The translations under genes were made by a program, and so were the position numbers. This document shows, piece by piece, positions 13,267 through 52,110 of a stretch of 64,000 bases of DNA (position 1 is the first letter of the stretch; the number at the start of each line of letters is the position of its first letter). Source of the stretch: Chlorobiaceae bacterium (GTDB lineage Bacteria > Bacteroidota > Chlorobiia > Chlorobiales > Chlorobiaceae); NCBI GenBank assembly GCA_013335115.1, contig JAAXWQ010000001.1, positions 62,001-126,000 of the forward strand. The letters are read 5' to 3'. Below the pieces are notes generated by a model that saw only the letters and a list, made by a program, of their open reading frames with translations, did not search any database and was not told where the DNA came from.

Positions 13267-15078
13267 TTATTTCTCCTCTGCAGGCAACTCCACTTTGAGA
13301 CAGAGCTCCTTGAGCTGCTGCATGGTCACCTCTGAAGGGGCACTCATCATGAGGTCCTGGGCGGACTGGTTCATCGGGAAGGCGATGACCTCGCGGATGT
13401 TCTGCTCGTCGCGCAGGATCATGACCAGGCGGTCCAGGCCGGGGGCGATCCCGCCGTGCGGTGGGGCACCGAGTTTAAAGGCGTCGATCATGTGACCAAA
13501 GCGGGCGTCGACTTCATCCTTGGTATACCCGGCGATCTCGAAGGCCTTGTACATGATGTCGGGGCGGTGGTTCCTGATCGCGCCGCTGGAGAGTTCTATG
13601 CCATTGCAGACGATGTCGTACTGGTAGGCAAGGATGTCAAGCGGGAACTGCGACTCGAGGGCATCCATCTCGCCCTGGGGCATCGAGAAGGGATTGTGCG
13701 AGAAGTCTATCTTCTCTGCCTCCTCGTTGTACTCGTACATCGGGAAATCGACGATCCAGCAGAACGACAACTCGTCACGATCAAGCGGGAAGAGCTCGCC
13801 GAAATATGAGCGCATGCCGCCCATGATCTTGCAGGTCTTCTCCCACTTGCCGGCGCCGAAAAAGACCACATCGCCGTTTTCAATGCCGAGATGCGTCTTG
13901 AGTGCGGCCATCTCCCCTTCGCTCATGAACTTGACGACCGGTCCCTTCGGGCCCTCCTCCCTGAACTGGATATAGGCCAGGCCGGCCGAGCCGAGTTCCT
14001 TTGCCCGCTTCTCGGCCTTGTCGTAGAAAAGGCGTGATTCGTTGCCAAGGCCCTTCAGCACCAGCGCCTTCACGCAGGAGCCCTCCTTGGTATTGGAAGC
14101 GAAGACCTTGAAGCCGGAGTCGACGAACAGTGGCGTCACATCCCGGATTTCAAGCGGGATCCTGAGGTCCGGCTTGTCGGATCCGAAGCGGTTCATCACG
14201 TCACGATAGCTGATGCGCGGAAACGGGAACTGCGCAATGCGCTTGTCGGACATCGACTCGACGAGATGCCTGAACATACCCTCGAGGATGGCGAAAAGGT
14301 CGTCCTGCTCGATGAAGGACATCTCGATATCGACCTGGTAGAACTCGCCGGGGCTACGGTCGGCTCGGGCATCCTCGTCGCGGAAGCAAGGGGCTATCTG
14401 GAAGTAGCGCGGGAAGCCGGCCACCATCAGGAGCTGCTTGAACTGCTGGGGCGCTTGCGGCAGCGCGTAGAACTTGCCGGGATGCAGGCGGCTCGGCACG
14501 AGGAAGTCGCGGGCGCCTTCGGGAGAGCTCGAGGTGAGGATCGGCGTCTGTATTTCGATGAAGTCCCTGTCGGTGAGGAACTTCCTGACGGCTGCGGTCA
14601 GCTTGCTGCGGAACACGATGTTCTCGTGCAGCTTTTCGCGGCGAAGGTCGATGAAGCGGTACTTGAGGCGAAGCTCCTCGGAGGTCGGCATGTCGTCGGC
14701 CACCGGAAACGGCAGCGGCTGTGCGTTGCTCTCGACATGGAGCGCAGAACCGACCACCTCGATTGCCCCGGATGCGAGGCGCGGGTTGACGGTTTCGGGT
14801 GAGCGGCGCACCACGGTTCCCTCGATGCTGATCACCGATTCGGAATGCAGCCCTTCAGCCTGGCGGAACAGCTGGACGTTCTCCGGCTGGATCACCATCT
14901 GGCAAATGCCGGTATGGTCCCTGAGGTCGATGAAGATCAGGCCGCCATGATCCCGCTTGCGATGGACCCATCCGCCGAGTTTGACTTCAGTCCCCTCGAA
15001 CCCGGGATTCAGGAGTCCGCAATAGTGGGTACGGAAACGGTTTTGCAGACTCTCTCCGGGGGTTGGCGCCTTACTCAT
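13267..15078 (-). CDS. aspS: aspartyl-tRNA synthetase (bacterial type)
   Basis: Charges tRNA-Asp. At 603 residues it has bacterial-type length, with an OB-fold anticodon domain ([21 protein letters not shown]), class II motifs 2 and 3 ([10 protein letters not shown], and GLDRLVMIL near the C-terminus) and the inserted GAD domain between them. Whether it is discriminating or also mischarges tRNA-Asn cannot be told reliably by eye. The gene stands alone, ending at a strong hairpin. ATG 15078 gives [10 protein letters not shown]. Confidence 0.96.
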
Positions 15079-15167: not shown

Positions 15168-16963
15168 TCAGTAGGCGAGTTCGCCGCCAAACTCCGTAAT
15201 CAGGAACCTGACCACCTCATTCGTTTCAGACAGCTCCTGGAACATGGTGAAGACGGTCTTCTCCTTCGTGCACGCATCACGCTCGGCGTCGTAGCGAACC
15301 TGCAGCTTCAGCGGCAGGTGATAGAATTCGCACAACTCCTGTTCAAGGAGCGACGAATCGTGCAGCAACTCCTCGTAGGAGAATTTCCGGCAGCAGCCAA
15401 GCACGACGAGCCCCATGTGGCTGCATGAGTGCAGTTCGCTGACATGCAGGTGCGACACGACCACCTGCATGCCCTTCCTGATGAGATGGTCAAGGAAGCG
15501 GTGCCACTCGAGCCTGAGCTGGTCGAGCACGGCCACCGGAGGTTCACCGTCGGTGCCCTGCGGCTCGGCAAGGGCTTTCACGGCAGCCGGCATCCTCGGT
15601 TCGGGACTGTTGCCGAAGTTTGAGAAGGCCTGTTTCCAGGAACCAAGGTCGATGGAGGGCGAGGCCTCCTCGACCTCCAGGACGGCACGCACGGAACCGG
15701 ATGGTGCCAGTGGCGGCATCGAGGCCGGCCGTGGTGCTGGCGGCGGTGGCGGTGTCGCCGGCCGGGGAGCGCCTACATGCTCAGCTGAGGCTTTTTTTTT
15801 TCGTCCGCAGGAGCGGAAACCGAAGCCTTGAGGCCTGGGCCGGCCAGGTCGATCAGCTTGAGCAGGGCGAGTTCAAAACGAAACTGGTGCTCGGTTGAAA
15901 ACTTCAGTTCTCGCTGCGTCTGCAGGAGCAGGTCGGTCATCGCCATGATCCCCTGCGGATCGAGATGGGAGGCATCACGCTGATATCGCTCCTTGACCGG
16001 CTCCGGGCGTTCGATCAGCCGGCTGGAACGGAGGTTGTGGATGATCAGGAAATTCCTGAAATGCTCGATGAGCTTCTCGATGAAATCCTGCTCGTCGTAA
16101 CCGTTGCGGTTCACCATCATGGCAACCTCGAGCATCAAGGCGGCATCGCCCGAGGCGATGGCGTCGGTCACCATGAAGAAGTGCTCGTCGTCGATGTAGC
16201 TCAACAGCTCGGAGACCTTTTCGTAGCTGATTTCCCGTGCACCGTCCGCATCAAGCGCGAAGGCGATTACCTGGTCAAGGATGCTCTGTGCGTCGCGCAT
16301 CGAGCCCTGGGCCTTGCGGGCCACGAGCTGCAACGCATCGGCATCGGCCCTGATGCCTTCAGCATCGCAAATAGTCTGGAGTTGCCGCTGGATCTCCATG
16401 ATTGGGATCCGCTTGAAGTTGAAACGCTGGCAGCGCGAGGCGATGGTCGCCGGGATCTTGTGCAGTTCTGTGGTCGCGAAGATGAAGATGGCATGCGGTG
16501 GCGGCTCCTCGAGCGTCTTAAGGAATGCATTGAATGCTGCCGTGGAGAGCATGTGCACCTCATCGATGATATAGACCCGGTAGCGCCCTTTCTGGGGACC
16601 GTAGCGCACGTTCTCGCGAAGCAGCCGGATGTCGTCCACGCTGTTGTTGGATGCCGCGTCGAACTCGGCGATATTGAGGCTCGCACCGGCGTCGAAGTCC
16701 CGGCAGCTCTCGCACTCGCCGCAAGGTTCGGTCACCTCCTTCAGGTACACCGGGTCGTCGATCATCCGCTCGCAGTTGACTGCCTTGGCGAACACCCTGG
16801 CCGCCGTGGTCTTGCCGACCCCCCTCAGGCCGGAAAAGATATAGCCGTGGCCCACCCTGCCCATCCTGAGGGAATTCTGGATGGTGCCGGTGATATGCTC
16901 CTGCGCGGTGATGTCCGCGAAGCGGGATGGACGGTATTTTCGTGCTATGACCTGGTAACTCAT
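15168..16963 (-). CDS. dnaX: DNA polymerase III tau subunit, read through a -1 frameshift or slippage site
   Basis: Full-length clamp-loader subunit made if one base is regained at the A10 run 15792-15801. The first ~390 residues (gamma part) join a Pro/Ala-rich linker ([13 protein letters not shown]) and then a C-terminal domain ending EFGGELAY. Counting a -1 shift, the product has 598 residues. The second frame has no stop between the A10 run and 15168, so the two parts form one gene, as in E. coli (A6G -1 frameshift) and Thermus (A9 transcriptional slippage). In tau, the C-terminal part binds polymerase alpha and DnaB. The start overlaps the yihY stop by 4 nt. Confidence 0.85.
15773..16963 (-). 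CDS. dnaX: DNA polymerase III gamma subunit (in-frame dnaX product)
   Basis: Reading straight through gives 396 residues: AAA+ ATPase domain with Walker [10 protein letters not shown], a zinc-binding group of cysteines (NCERM and CGECESC), Walker [11 protein letters not shown], the sensor-1 region [10 protein letters not shown], and then domain III for clamp-loader assembly. It stops six codons past the A10 run with ...KKKPQLSM. That is the gamma form: it loads the sliding clamp but lacks the polymerase-binding tail. It is slightly shorter than E. coli gamma (431 residues). Confidence 0.9.
15791..15802 (-). promoter_or_regulatory. dnaX slippery sequence (G A10 G on the minus strand)
   Basis: On the coding strand a run of ten A is flanked by G, read GAA AAA AAA AAG in the gamma frame. 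It contains A AAA AAG, the E. coli dnaX heptamer, and is long enough for RNA polymerase slippage. A palindrome CTCAGCTGAG follows 2 nt after the run. No obvious internal Shine-Dalgarno lies just upstream, which leans towards transcriptional slippage, though both are possible. Confidence 0.8.
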
Positions 16964-18234
16964 GGAACCTTTGATGTTGAATCTTGCAGGAGTTCGGCGA
17001 GCGGCACGTGCAGGCCCACCCTGAGCGTCTCCCCCACCTCACGCCGCACCCCGGCGAAACGATCTCCCGTCGCCACCTCCGGTGCACCGGCCTGGCCGCG
17101 CGCCATCTCCGGCGGAAGCTTCAGGTACAGCTCGTAAAGGGTGAACGAATGAAGGTCCGCGGTGAGTGCGAGGCCTCCGTCGGCCGTCTGGTGGATGACG
17201 TTTTCCTGCGTCAGGAACTCGACGATACGGGTCAATTTACTACGGTCCGGGATATTTTCCGCTGTAAAGAGCTTTTTCATGTCCATGAACCTGCACGATG
17301 CCTGGGCAGCGTGGATATGACCGATAACGACCAGGATTTCGGGCAGCCCCTTGAGGGGATCGTACTCCCTGCCCGCCTCGGGCGAAGCGGTAAAATATCC
17401 GAGGGAGTAGACGAATTCGGCGGCCGTCAGCACGACGACCCATTCGAGGTAAATCCAGAAAAAAAGCATTGGCACGACCGAAAGGGCGCCGTAGATCTGT
17501 GCGAACGTCGCGAAATGCGATACGTAGAAGGCGAACCACCGCTTGGCGAGTTCGAAAAGCACCGCTGCAAGCAAGCCGCCCGCCAGGGCATGGTCAAACC
17601 TCACCTTGCGGTTCGGCACGAGCAGGTAGAGGAGGGAAAAGGCAAGGATCGAATTGATGAACGGAATGAGGGAGAGGAGGCGGGACTGCATCTCAAGCAG
17701 CGGCCCCTGGGTGAACACCTCGTACCAGACGAACGAACTGGCCACCAGGCTGGTTCCGATGAAAACCGGACCGAGCGTCAGCACGGTCCAGTATAGCGTG
17801 AAGCCCTCGAGGAACTTCCGGGGGGCGTGCACCTCCCAGATGCCGTTCAGGGTATGGTCGATGGTGGAGATCAGGAACAGTGCGATGACGAACAGGAATA
17901 CGCCGCCGATGGTCGAGACCGCCGAGGCCTTGTCGATGAACCCCCAGAGGTACGACTCGAGGAGATCGACCTGTGCAGGAGCGAAGTTCTGGAAAAGGAA
18001 ATCGCCGATGTGGCCTTTAAACGAGGCGAAAAATGGAAACAGCTTGAGCATCGAAAGGATCACGGCCAGGAGGGGCACCATCGAAAGCAGCGTCTGGAAC
18101 GACAGGGAGCCAGCGCTCAACAGGATACGGTCCTGCACGAAGTGCTTCGCCGTAAAAGTCAGGAGCGATGAGAGCTCCCTGAACCCCCACCTTCCGGAGC
18201 CCTGGACTCCTGATGTCTTGAGCGTCTCTTTCAT
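16960..18234 (-). CDS. YihY/BrkB-family membrane protein with C-terminal extension
   Basis: A 424-residue protein; the first ~290 residues are a YihY (UPF0761, once mis-named RNase BN) membrane domain with about six hydrophobic segments and the hallmark [23 protein letters not shown]. The rest (~130 residues) is soluble and resembles the winged-helix extension seen on many family members ([21 protein letters not shown]). The function is unknown; a transport or permease-like role has been suggested. It overlaps dnaX by 4 nt (ATGA), so dnaX is probably translationally coupled to it. Confidence 0.88.
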
Positions 18235-49400: not shown

Positions 49401-49407
49401 TTTTTTT

Positions 49408-52110
49408 TTACGAATTGACCATCTCCCGCACCTTCTGTGTCAGGGCATGGACGGTAAAGGGCTTCTGCAGGAACGATACCCCACTCCCCTTCTCGCCTGA
49501 GGTCGTGATGATGCTCTTGGTGTAGCCCGACATGTAAAGAACCTTCAGTCCGGGCAAGAGGACGAGCGCCTTTTCGGAAAGCTCCCGACCATTGATGCCT
49601 TTCATGACCAGGTCGGTCAGCAACAGGTCCGGCACGTAGTCGCCCCCCTCCAGCATCTCGAAAGCCTCCTCCCCGCTCGCCGCACTTTGGACCTCGAACC
49701 CCTCATGCTGCAACGCCTGTTCGACCAGCTGCCTGACCTGCTCGTCGTCTTCCACGACAAGGACGGTACCGGAACTTGGTCCCTGCGCTGCCGAAACCTT
49801 TTCAGCCATAAGGGCGCCGACCTCTCCGGCCCGCAACGGGAACCAGATCCTGAAGCAGCTTCCGCGGCCGGGCTCGCTTGAAACCTTGATGTACCCGCCA
49901 TGCTGCTTCACGATGCCGTAGACGATCGACAGCCCGAGGCCGGTCCCCTTCCCTTTCGGCTTGGTGGTGAAGAACGGCTCGAATACATGGGACAAGGTCT
50001 CGCTGTCCATACCGGTTCCGTTATCGCTGATGGAGAGCATGACGTAACGCCCGACGGGAACCCCCTCGAAAAGCGCCTCGCCACCCGGATCCACGACGGT
50101 CAGCGAGGTTTCGATCGTCAGGTTGCCTCCTGAGTGCATCGAATCGTCGGCATTGATGGCCAGGTTCATGATGATCTGTTCGATCTGCCCGGCATCGCCA
50201 ATCATGGAAAGGACCTTGTCGTCGAGATGGTAGGTAATCGCGACATTCGCGCGGATCGTCCGGCGGAGGAGGGACCCGAACCCCCGGACAACGGCATTCA
50301 GGTCGATCACCCGGAACTCGAGGGATTGGCTGCTGCTGAACGCCAGCAGTTGGCGGATCAGGTCCCGGGCCTTGAGCGCCGCATCGTGCATCACATTGAG
50401 TTGCTGGCGGCGGGAATCCTTGGGGTCGAACTTCTGGGCGAGGATTTCCGAGTAGCCGAGGATCGGTGTCAAAAGATTGTTCAGGTCATGGGCAACGCCA
50501 CCGGCAAGGCGGCCGATCGACTCCAGCTTCTGGGACTGGAAAAGCTGCTTTTCCAGTCCTGTCCGCTCCTTGTTGGCCAGTTTCCGCCCGGTGATATCAC
50601 GCATGAACACCAGGGCCCCATGCCGGTGTGCATAGACGAAAGGGACGGCCGAAATCTCCGCATCGAACGACGTGCCATCAAGCCGGAGCATTTTTTCCTC
50701 GATCAGGGGGACCGCTTCAAGCTCTTTGTTGAGCATGCGAATCCTTTCGGAGACGAGTTTCCTGAACTCGGGATGGACATGCTCCAGGACCGGGGATCCG
50801 ATGAGCTGGTCGGGAGTCGTCGCCCCGAACATCCTCATGGCCGCAGTGTTGAGATAGGCGAAGTTCCCGGCAGTCTGGATAAAAATTCCCTCAGGCGCGG
50901 ATTCGACTGCCGAACGGAACCGGATTTCGCTTTCGATCAGCGCCATCTGCGAATGCTGGCGTTCGGTGATATCCTGCACGGTCGCAATCCGGTACACCGG
51001 GTTGCCCTGGTCGCCCAAAATGCTCACGATGTCCATCTGGACAGGGAAGCTGCTCCCATCACTTCGCACCATCCGGGACTCGTAGCTGACTGAACCCTTG
51101 CGGTCAGCCTCCGCAAGTAGCCCGACCACCCGATCATGCTCCTCCGGGACATACATGCCCAGAATGGGAGATCCCTCGATTTCGTCGATGCCCAGCCGGT
51201 GAATCCGGGCGAACGCCTCGTTGCAGGTCAGGATGCAGTTGGTGGACGTAAGGCCTATGGCGATGCCATGGGAGCAGTAACGGAACGCGTCCGCCCATAG
51301 GCGGGTCTCCTCCTCCTGCCTGATTCTTTCGGTTATATCGCGGGCGATCGAATAGAGGGCTTCGCCACTCTTGTAGATGGTATTCCATTCGAGCCAGTGC
51401 CAGGAACCGTCCTTTGCCCGAAACCGGTTGACGAAGGAGCGGGAGGTCCCGCCTGCAAGGATCTTCTGCAACTCCCTGTGACTGTGTTCAGTATCGTCGG
51501 GATGGACCAGGTCGAAACCGGATCTCGAGAGCAGTTCTTCAGGCGTATAACCGAGCGTTGACTGCCACGCGGCATTGACCTTCGTCAGGCATCCTGCCGG
51601 AGTGGAACTGGCTACCAGGTCAGGCACGAGGTTGAACAGGCGTTCGAACTCGAGTTCGGCTGTTTTCCCCCGGGTGACATCCCTGACGAAACAAACGACG
51701 CCGATTATCTCGCCAGCTTCGTTCCCGACCGGGATTTTCCGCGTATGAAGCCAGAGTTTCCCGTTGTTGCCCGACACCTCCCAATCCCGTATCTCAGCCT
51801 GGCGTGTGCGCATGACCTCCCGGTCGCTGTCGACATAGGACCCTGCCTCCGGAGCAGGAAACAGCTCATAGTCCGTTTTTCCGACACTCTCCTCCCGGCT
51901 CTTTCCTACCGCTTTGCAGAACGCTTCATTGACGATACGGTAGACCGAATCCCGATCCTTGAAAAAAAGCGCGTCACCCGTAACATCGATACAAGCATCG
52001 AATATGGACTGCTGTTCAGCCAGTTGCTGCTCGAGGACATCGATTCGTGCCCGTGAAGCATCCAGCTCCTGCCTGAGTCGACTGAGCTCTGTACGATCTG
52101 CTGCGTTCAT
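49408..52110 (-). CDS. multi-PAS hybrid sensor histidine kinase
   Basis: A 900-residue two-component sensor without clear membrane helices. In order: coiled coil (1-35), four PAS domains (~35-155, 160-275, 280-395, 400-515; the second with the W-rich [16 protein letters not shown] motif), HisKA with [13 protein letters not shown] (phosphoacceptor His541), HATPase ([26 protein letters not shown]) and a receiver with Asp833 in [10 protein letters not shown]. It should autophosphorylate and pass phosphate to its own receiver and then to an unseen partner. The signal may be redox, light or a ligand. It is convergent with rnpB. Confidence 0.92.

Follow-up and report, generated by a model that had tools for sequence, protein, structure and literature searches.

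How one dnaX locus can supply both clamp-loader proteins, gamma and tau, when its reading frame closes shortly after a run of ten A's is the question raised by the window analyzed here, a stretch of 64,000 nucleotides from a Chlorobiaceae bacterium. We propose that this single locus would yield two products, a gamma of 396 aa and a tau of 598 aa, and that RNA polymerase slippage on the A10 run, of the kind known from Thermus, is probably the main mechanism by which it does so.

The run, read directly from the minus strand, is uninterrupted and contains exactly ten A's, and the junction reads GCG GAC GAA AAA AAA AAG CCT CAG CTG AGC ATG TAG (Table 1). From the gamma start to the tau stop the gene spans 1796 nt, which is 1 nt short of 599 codons, so that one regained base yields a tau of 598 residues; whether an A is added or the frame shifts by −1 at the run, the gamma and tail frames are fused into a product of this length. 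Counted from A10, the three frames remain open for 207, 3 and 6 codons. The preliminary description of this DNA had read from the letters a run of ten A's, a 396-residue gamma ending six codons on, a 598-residue tau ending at position 15168 and recognizable protein parts in both frames, and all of this stands; the early stop in the third frame (TGA, 15783-15781) is an addition to it.

Table 1. Positions of the dnaX features within the window.
Feature	Position	Strand	Basis or remark
dnaX zero-frame ORF, gamma, 396 aa	15773..16963	-	ORF list, Pfam, NCBIfam
A10 homopolymer, proposed RNA polymerase slippage site	15792..15801	-	A9-A11 in 87/87 Chlorobiales loci
In-frame heptamer A_AAA_AAG at the 3' end of A10, potential −1 ribosomal frameshift site	15791..15797	-	Sequence
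Gamma stop TAG, zero frame, sixth codon past the last codon of the run (AAG)	15773..15775	-
Third-frame stop TGA (run length n_tau+1), three codons past A10	15781..15783	-	Layout conserved
Tau-specific tail, −1 frame: proline-rich linker, then conserved C-terminal domain	15168..15791	-	207 codons + stop
Conserved tau domain at the C-terminus (residues 88-207 of the tail)	15168..15530	-	28-sequence alignment, structure model

Runs of this length are scarce. Within the 64-kb window, a search for nine or more consecutive A's gives three overlapping matches in two places, where 0.22 matches are expected, and pattern searches of the 2.1-Mb genome, an assembly of 29 contigs, return three runs of at least ten A's and 35 of exactly nine. 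The second place in the window is another A9 on the minus strand (49401-49409), toward the 3' end of an open frame of 106 codons. One of the other long runs in the genome (L247, G000:C22:27129-27138) is in frame close to the beginning of an ORF resembling rsmA/ksgA, the gene of a 16S rRNA methyltransferase, where it is possibly a hot spot of slippage or of replication errors; the third (L246, G000:C7:110175-110184) is close to where a long ORF begins on the opposite strand. As for the neighbors of dnaX itself, the ORF upstream (16960-18234), by eye a YihY-like membrane protein, shares the four bases ATGA at 16960-16963 with the start of dnaX, which suggests translational coupling. The ORF that follows on the same strand (13267-15078), beginning about 90 bases past the tau stop, reads as an aspartyl-tRNA synthetase of 603 aa.

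Both sides of the junction code for parts of the DnaX family. Gamma carries an AAA+ domain (residues 21-186), an ATPase lid (190-236) and domain III (246-374; Pfam PF13177, PF22608 and PF12169, respectively), and the zero-frame product matches the 397-aa NCBIfam model PRK14955 with 797 bits. The 620-aa model PRK14954 (DnaX gamma/tau) spans gamma and the tail, and the tail frame matches only its C-terminal part (positions 417-620, E 9e-72). These two models seem to be separate DnaX equivalogs for this group's architectures with tau in frame (PRK14954) and with gamma in frame (PRK14955). The tau tail evolves under purifying selection: its dN/dS against the nearest relatives is 0.09-0.18, with 0.10-0.15 over the last 130 codons, and 0.30 in a further, closely related pair of loci (L203/L211). 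An alignment of 28 Chlorobiales tails contains invariant residues. A structure model of the tail reaches a pLDDT of 94-98 over residues 91-170. Structural alignment of this model ranked DnaA domain I first (Z 9.8), and the C-terminal domain of E. coli tau is among its matches (2aya, Z 6.1; 5fku_E, Z 6.3; residues 94-201). Such matches fit a tau C-terminal domain, yet they score no higher than unrelated entries; they are suggestive only, and we do not count them as proof. Comparison of the tail sequence with solved structures gave no significant match, and a Foldseek search with the tail model gave none below E 0.001.

The preliminary description had proposed to check whether the run is kept in other Chlorobiaceae dnaX genes. 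A class-wide search provided 98 genomes, in which 87 junction-spanning dnaX loci of the order Chlorobiales were readable, and all 87 carry a pure A-run at the junction (A10 in 78, A9 in eight, A11 in one), counts that describe conservation among phylogenetically related loci and not independent trials. When codons are dealt among synonymous positions, nine or more A's are expected in about 11.5 of 87 genes; the run is retained beyond codon chance. Homologues with one continuous frame and no A-run, which the preliminary description had named as counter-evidence, do not occur within the Chlorobiales: continuous-frame homologues exist, but they still carry the run.

The flanks of the run are conserved in a particular way. 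One tail frame stays open for about 180-250 codons past the run, and in every locus with gamma in the zero frame the tau frame reaches the run without a stop. The two off-frames, in contrast, are both closed within six codons in 80 of the 87 loci and within ten codons in 85, the exceptions being L239 and L240, whose third frame remains open for 40-41 codons; at other codon positions of the same genes such double closure is found in 3.5-6.8% (within six codons) and 7.8-14.8% (within ten). The closing stops vary among lineages, being TGA, TAA or TAG in differing codon contexts, a diversity that speaks for the stops themselves being under selection. Their layout relative to tau is the same regardless of which product the template encodes: the n_tau+1 frame mostly closes after 1-3 codons and the n_tau−1 frame mostly after 4-7.

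It is the encoded product that changes. Gamma is in the zero frame of the template in 73 of the Chlorobiales loci and tau in 14; the former require a −1 shift or one added A to reach tau, and a +1 requirement was found in none of the 87. On a tree built from the gamma-coding DNA with the A-run excluded, this polarity changes at least 11 times, nine of the changes being forced by well-supported branches, with the qualification that single-A errors in draft genomes could alter some of the polarity calls; clustering of polarity on the tree is only slightly above that of shuffled labels. Even near relatives of the window differ, L084 having gamma and L085 tau in frame, and in L085 and L095 the gamma and tail parts form one ORF. 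Some flips arise from a change in run length (A9 in L218 versus A10 in L200; A10 in L225 versus A11 in L226), others with A10 kept and the flanks changed (the Chlorobaculum-like L090, L092 and L094-L096). They are seen in single-contig genomes as well: G019 (2,154,946 bp), which we take to be C. tepidum, has tau in the template, and G002 (2,289,249 bp), presumably C. parvum, has gamma. Judged from this tree, the A-run appears to have been retained while the template product flipped at least nine times.

The run is not confined to this order. Outside the Chlorobiales we could read 69 dnaX loci, which represent about 45 further families of Bacteroidota (L249-L302, L309-L322), and 34 of them have A9-A11 within codons 345-400, as against one run of nine or more A's in all other codons of the same 69 genes up to codon 600. 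Here the template encodes tau in 27 loci and gamma in seven, and both off-frames are closed within ten codons in 28 of the 34, compared with 19.4% of other tail positions and, in the 35 genes that lack the run, 13.6% of the corresponding positions. Among 42 other named loci from outside the Chlorobiales, mostly from Firmicutes, A9 or A10 stands at the junction in two (L042 and L046), both labeled as Bacteroidota organisms. On the phylum tree polarity changes 12 times and presence of the run 13 times (six of them forced), so the run is either old with losses or has been gained repeatedly. On balance we favor the view that the junction poly-A is an old and widely kept device of the Bacteroidota, one indifferent to whether gamma or tau is templated, such that flips recur while the run and its two stops are kept.

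The model that best accommodates these observations is as follows. RNA polymerase would slip on A10 and produce mRNAs that differ in the number of A's. Messages with the templated ten (10+3n) would be translated to the TAG at 15773 and give gamma; those with one extra A (11, 14 and so on) would be read into the tail and give tau; and those with two extra A's or one missing would be terminated by the TGA at 15781, their product being a gamma of slightly reduced length. Two of the three frames would yield gamma and one tau, a dedicated ribosomal signal would be unnecessary, and some further tau may come from ribosomes that shift by −1 on the A_AAA_AAG within the run. A ribosomal frameshift site needs six A's, and a −1 ribosomal shift requires the closure of one frame only. 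A run longer than ribosomes need, two closed off-frames, indifference to polarity and the lack of consistent stimulators would all follow if slippage is transcriptional. Since a slipping polymerase would supply all frames, it would hardly matter whether the chromosome encodes gamma or tau. It is from these features of sequence that we infer both the transcriptional nature of the slippage and the ratio of gamma to tau, as well as the evolutionary indifference to template polarity.

A less probable, though still conceivable, alternative overlaps with this model: transcript heterogeneity would account for most of the tau, ribosomal shifting on the same run for the remainder, and the proportion would depend on lineage. 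The A-run does hold both signals, and as A_AAA_AAG lies in frame within A10, a ribosomal contribution may exist; a synonymous change to AAGAAAAAAG would break the A10 and retain the heptamer. Some relatives, for example L107, L110, L088 and L200, also have a strong Shine-Dalgarno-like sequence upstream. However, the conserved features can be explained without such a contribution.

That −1 programmed ribosomal frameshifting acts alone on A_AAA_AAG, in the manner of E. coli except that the zero-frame product is gamma, we regard as unlikely. The heptamer is in the right register in the window, and every split gene needs −1 (80 of 80 loci with gamma in the zero frame, from the Chlorobiales and other families), a need that is, however, predicted by ribosomal shifting and by insertion of one A alike. 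Outside the Chlorobiales the last codon within the run is AAA, AAG, AAC or others; it is the run length that is kept and not the A_AAA_AAG register. Frameshifting alone also leaves the closure of the third frame unexplained. Stimulators are not consistently found either. Upstream of the A10 in the window the Shine-Dalgarno-like duplex reaches only −3.2 kcal/mol, with no AGGAG-like sequence, which bears out the absence claimed in the preliminary description; across the group, duplexes of −4.4 kcal/mol or stronger occur upstream of the site in 33% as against 18% elsewhere, a modest excess that weakly favors the ribosome. Downstream, the mean RNA-folding z-score relative to shuffled sequence is −0.07 over the 87 loci (−0.9 in the window), and the small hairpin predicted immediately after A10 in the window is not seen in most of the relatives shown; no consistent stem-loop emerges. 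Rfam holds no frameshift element matching 15400-16200, the one sub-threshold match there being irrelevant. Finally, the genome encodes both tRNA-Lys UUU and tRNA-Lys CUU, the latter, which matches AAG exactly, being confirmed in 14 Chlorobiales genomes. Atkins et al. (2016, PMC5009743) tie the possession of two lysine tRNAs to slippage in Thermus and argue that it disfavors ribosomal shifting on AAG, although the same review mentions E. coli-like stimulators for Chlorobium phaeobacteroides. The preliminary description had preferred slippage to E. coli-type shifting, a choice that is strengthened by the retention of A9-A11, the closed off-frames, the two lysine tRNAs and the inconsistency of stimulators.

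The remaining alternatives fare considerably worse. Phase variation by slippage during DNA replication, with A10 and A11 cells making gamma and tau, respectively, would be in keeping with the changes of run length and polarity over evolution, but tau normally links the polymerases in the replisome, so that switching it on and off would be costly, and A10 is by far the commonest length; we consider it very improbable. More remote still is that the tail is a separate protein begun at the internal ATG at 15719 and never joined to gamma, for although an ORF of 183 aa with that ATG is present, no stop separates the tau frame from the run in any locus with gamma in the zero frame, and L085 and L095 carry both parts as one ORF. 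Equally remote is that the split stems from faulty sequencing or assembly, or that a frameshift has turned the gene into a pseudogene, as might be suspected of a homopolymer prone to error in a 29-contig assembly: A9-A11 in 87 of 87 loci, selection on the tail and the off-frame stops argue that the A10 split is no sequencing error, A10 and the split recur in many independent genomes, including the single-contig L093 and L203 and, with A9, L235, and the arrangement was described independently by Antonov et al. (2013, PMC3711429). We reject error and pseudogene on the strength of the 87 relatives together with the tail selection.

Taken together, we argue that the comparison across the phylum matters more than the single gene, as it offers a natural experiment from which to learn why gamma and tau are both retained by bacteria. 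It suggests that an essential replication gene tolerates one-base changes of frame because polymerase slippage sets the mix of its products. For annotation, split and single-ORF dnaX genes of Bacteroidota are likely equivalent, and neither should be taken for a pseudogene. The idea can be put to the test in a cultured pair of opposite polarity, C. tepidum with tau and C. parvum with gamma in frame.

How does this locus compare with known systems? The preliminary description had not seen anything of the kind described for green sulfur bacteria, but such genes have been published for them. Antonov et al. (2013, PMC3711429) report a GeneTack cluster of 17 two-ORF dnaX genes, nine of them with ten A's, propose transcriptional realignment for them and name as carriers Chloroherpeton thalassium (nine A's, the same length as in L235, a single-contig genome of 3,293,456 bp), Chlorobium chlorochromatii and C. 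phaeobacteroides. For the latter two that paper gives A8 or A7, lengths absent at the junction of our 87 Chlorobiales loci, a set that may lack both species. The reversed arrangement, with gamma in the zero frame, was repeated by Atkins et al. (2016, PMC5009743). With adjacent ORFs in a −1 relation and ten A's at their junction, both found here, the dnaX gene of the window adds one member to this two-ORF poly-A class published in 2013. Closed third frames, polarity flips, the lysine tRNAs of the group and the wider phylum are not discussed in the available text of that paper (PMC3711429). In the open-licence literature searched, we found neither the frequent polarity flips, the double closure and the lysine tRNA inventory nor a Bacteroidota-wide dnaX slippage or A-run.

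The E. coli dnaX gene shares with the window the kind of junction, A_AAA_AAG in the zero frame and two products (predicted here), but it has tau in the zero frame, six A's, a Shine-Dalgarno-like element with a stem-loop and a single tRNA-Lys (UUU), whereas the window combines a zero-frame gamma with ten A's and two tRNA-Lys and showed no clear stimulators of that kind. In E. coli the −1 frame closes after one codon and the +1 frame after 12. In Shigella mxiE and in IS-element genes (PMC1088944), slippage joins two ORFs into a longer product, as proposed here, but these genes are unrelated to dnaX, and for the window we expect gamma and tau alike to function as clamp-loader subunits. A further parallel is Thermus thermophilus, whose A9 at the gamma/tau junction of dnaX is known from experiment to slip (Larsen et al. 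2000, as relayed in PMC3711429, PMC5009743 and PMC1088944) and which, according to the same sources, likewise combines nine or more A's at the junction with two lysine tRNAs and nearby stops in both non-tau frames. Tau is what the Thermus template encodes, gamma being the product of slippage; in the window it is gamma that is templated, and tau would arise once an A is added. The Thermus polarity, with tau as a single template ORF, is not that of the window, but it is present in 14 of the 87 Chlorobiales loci.
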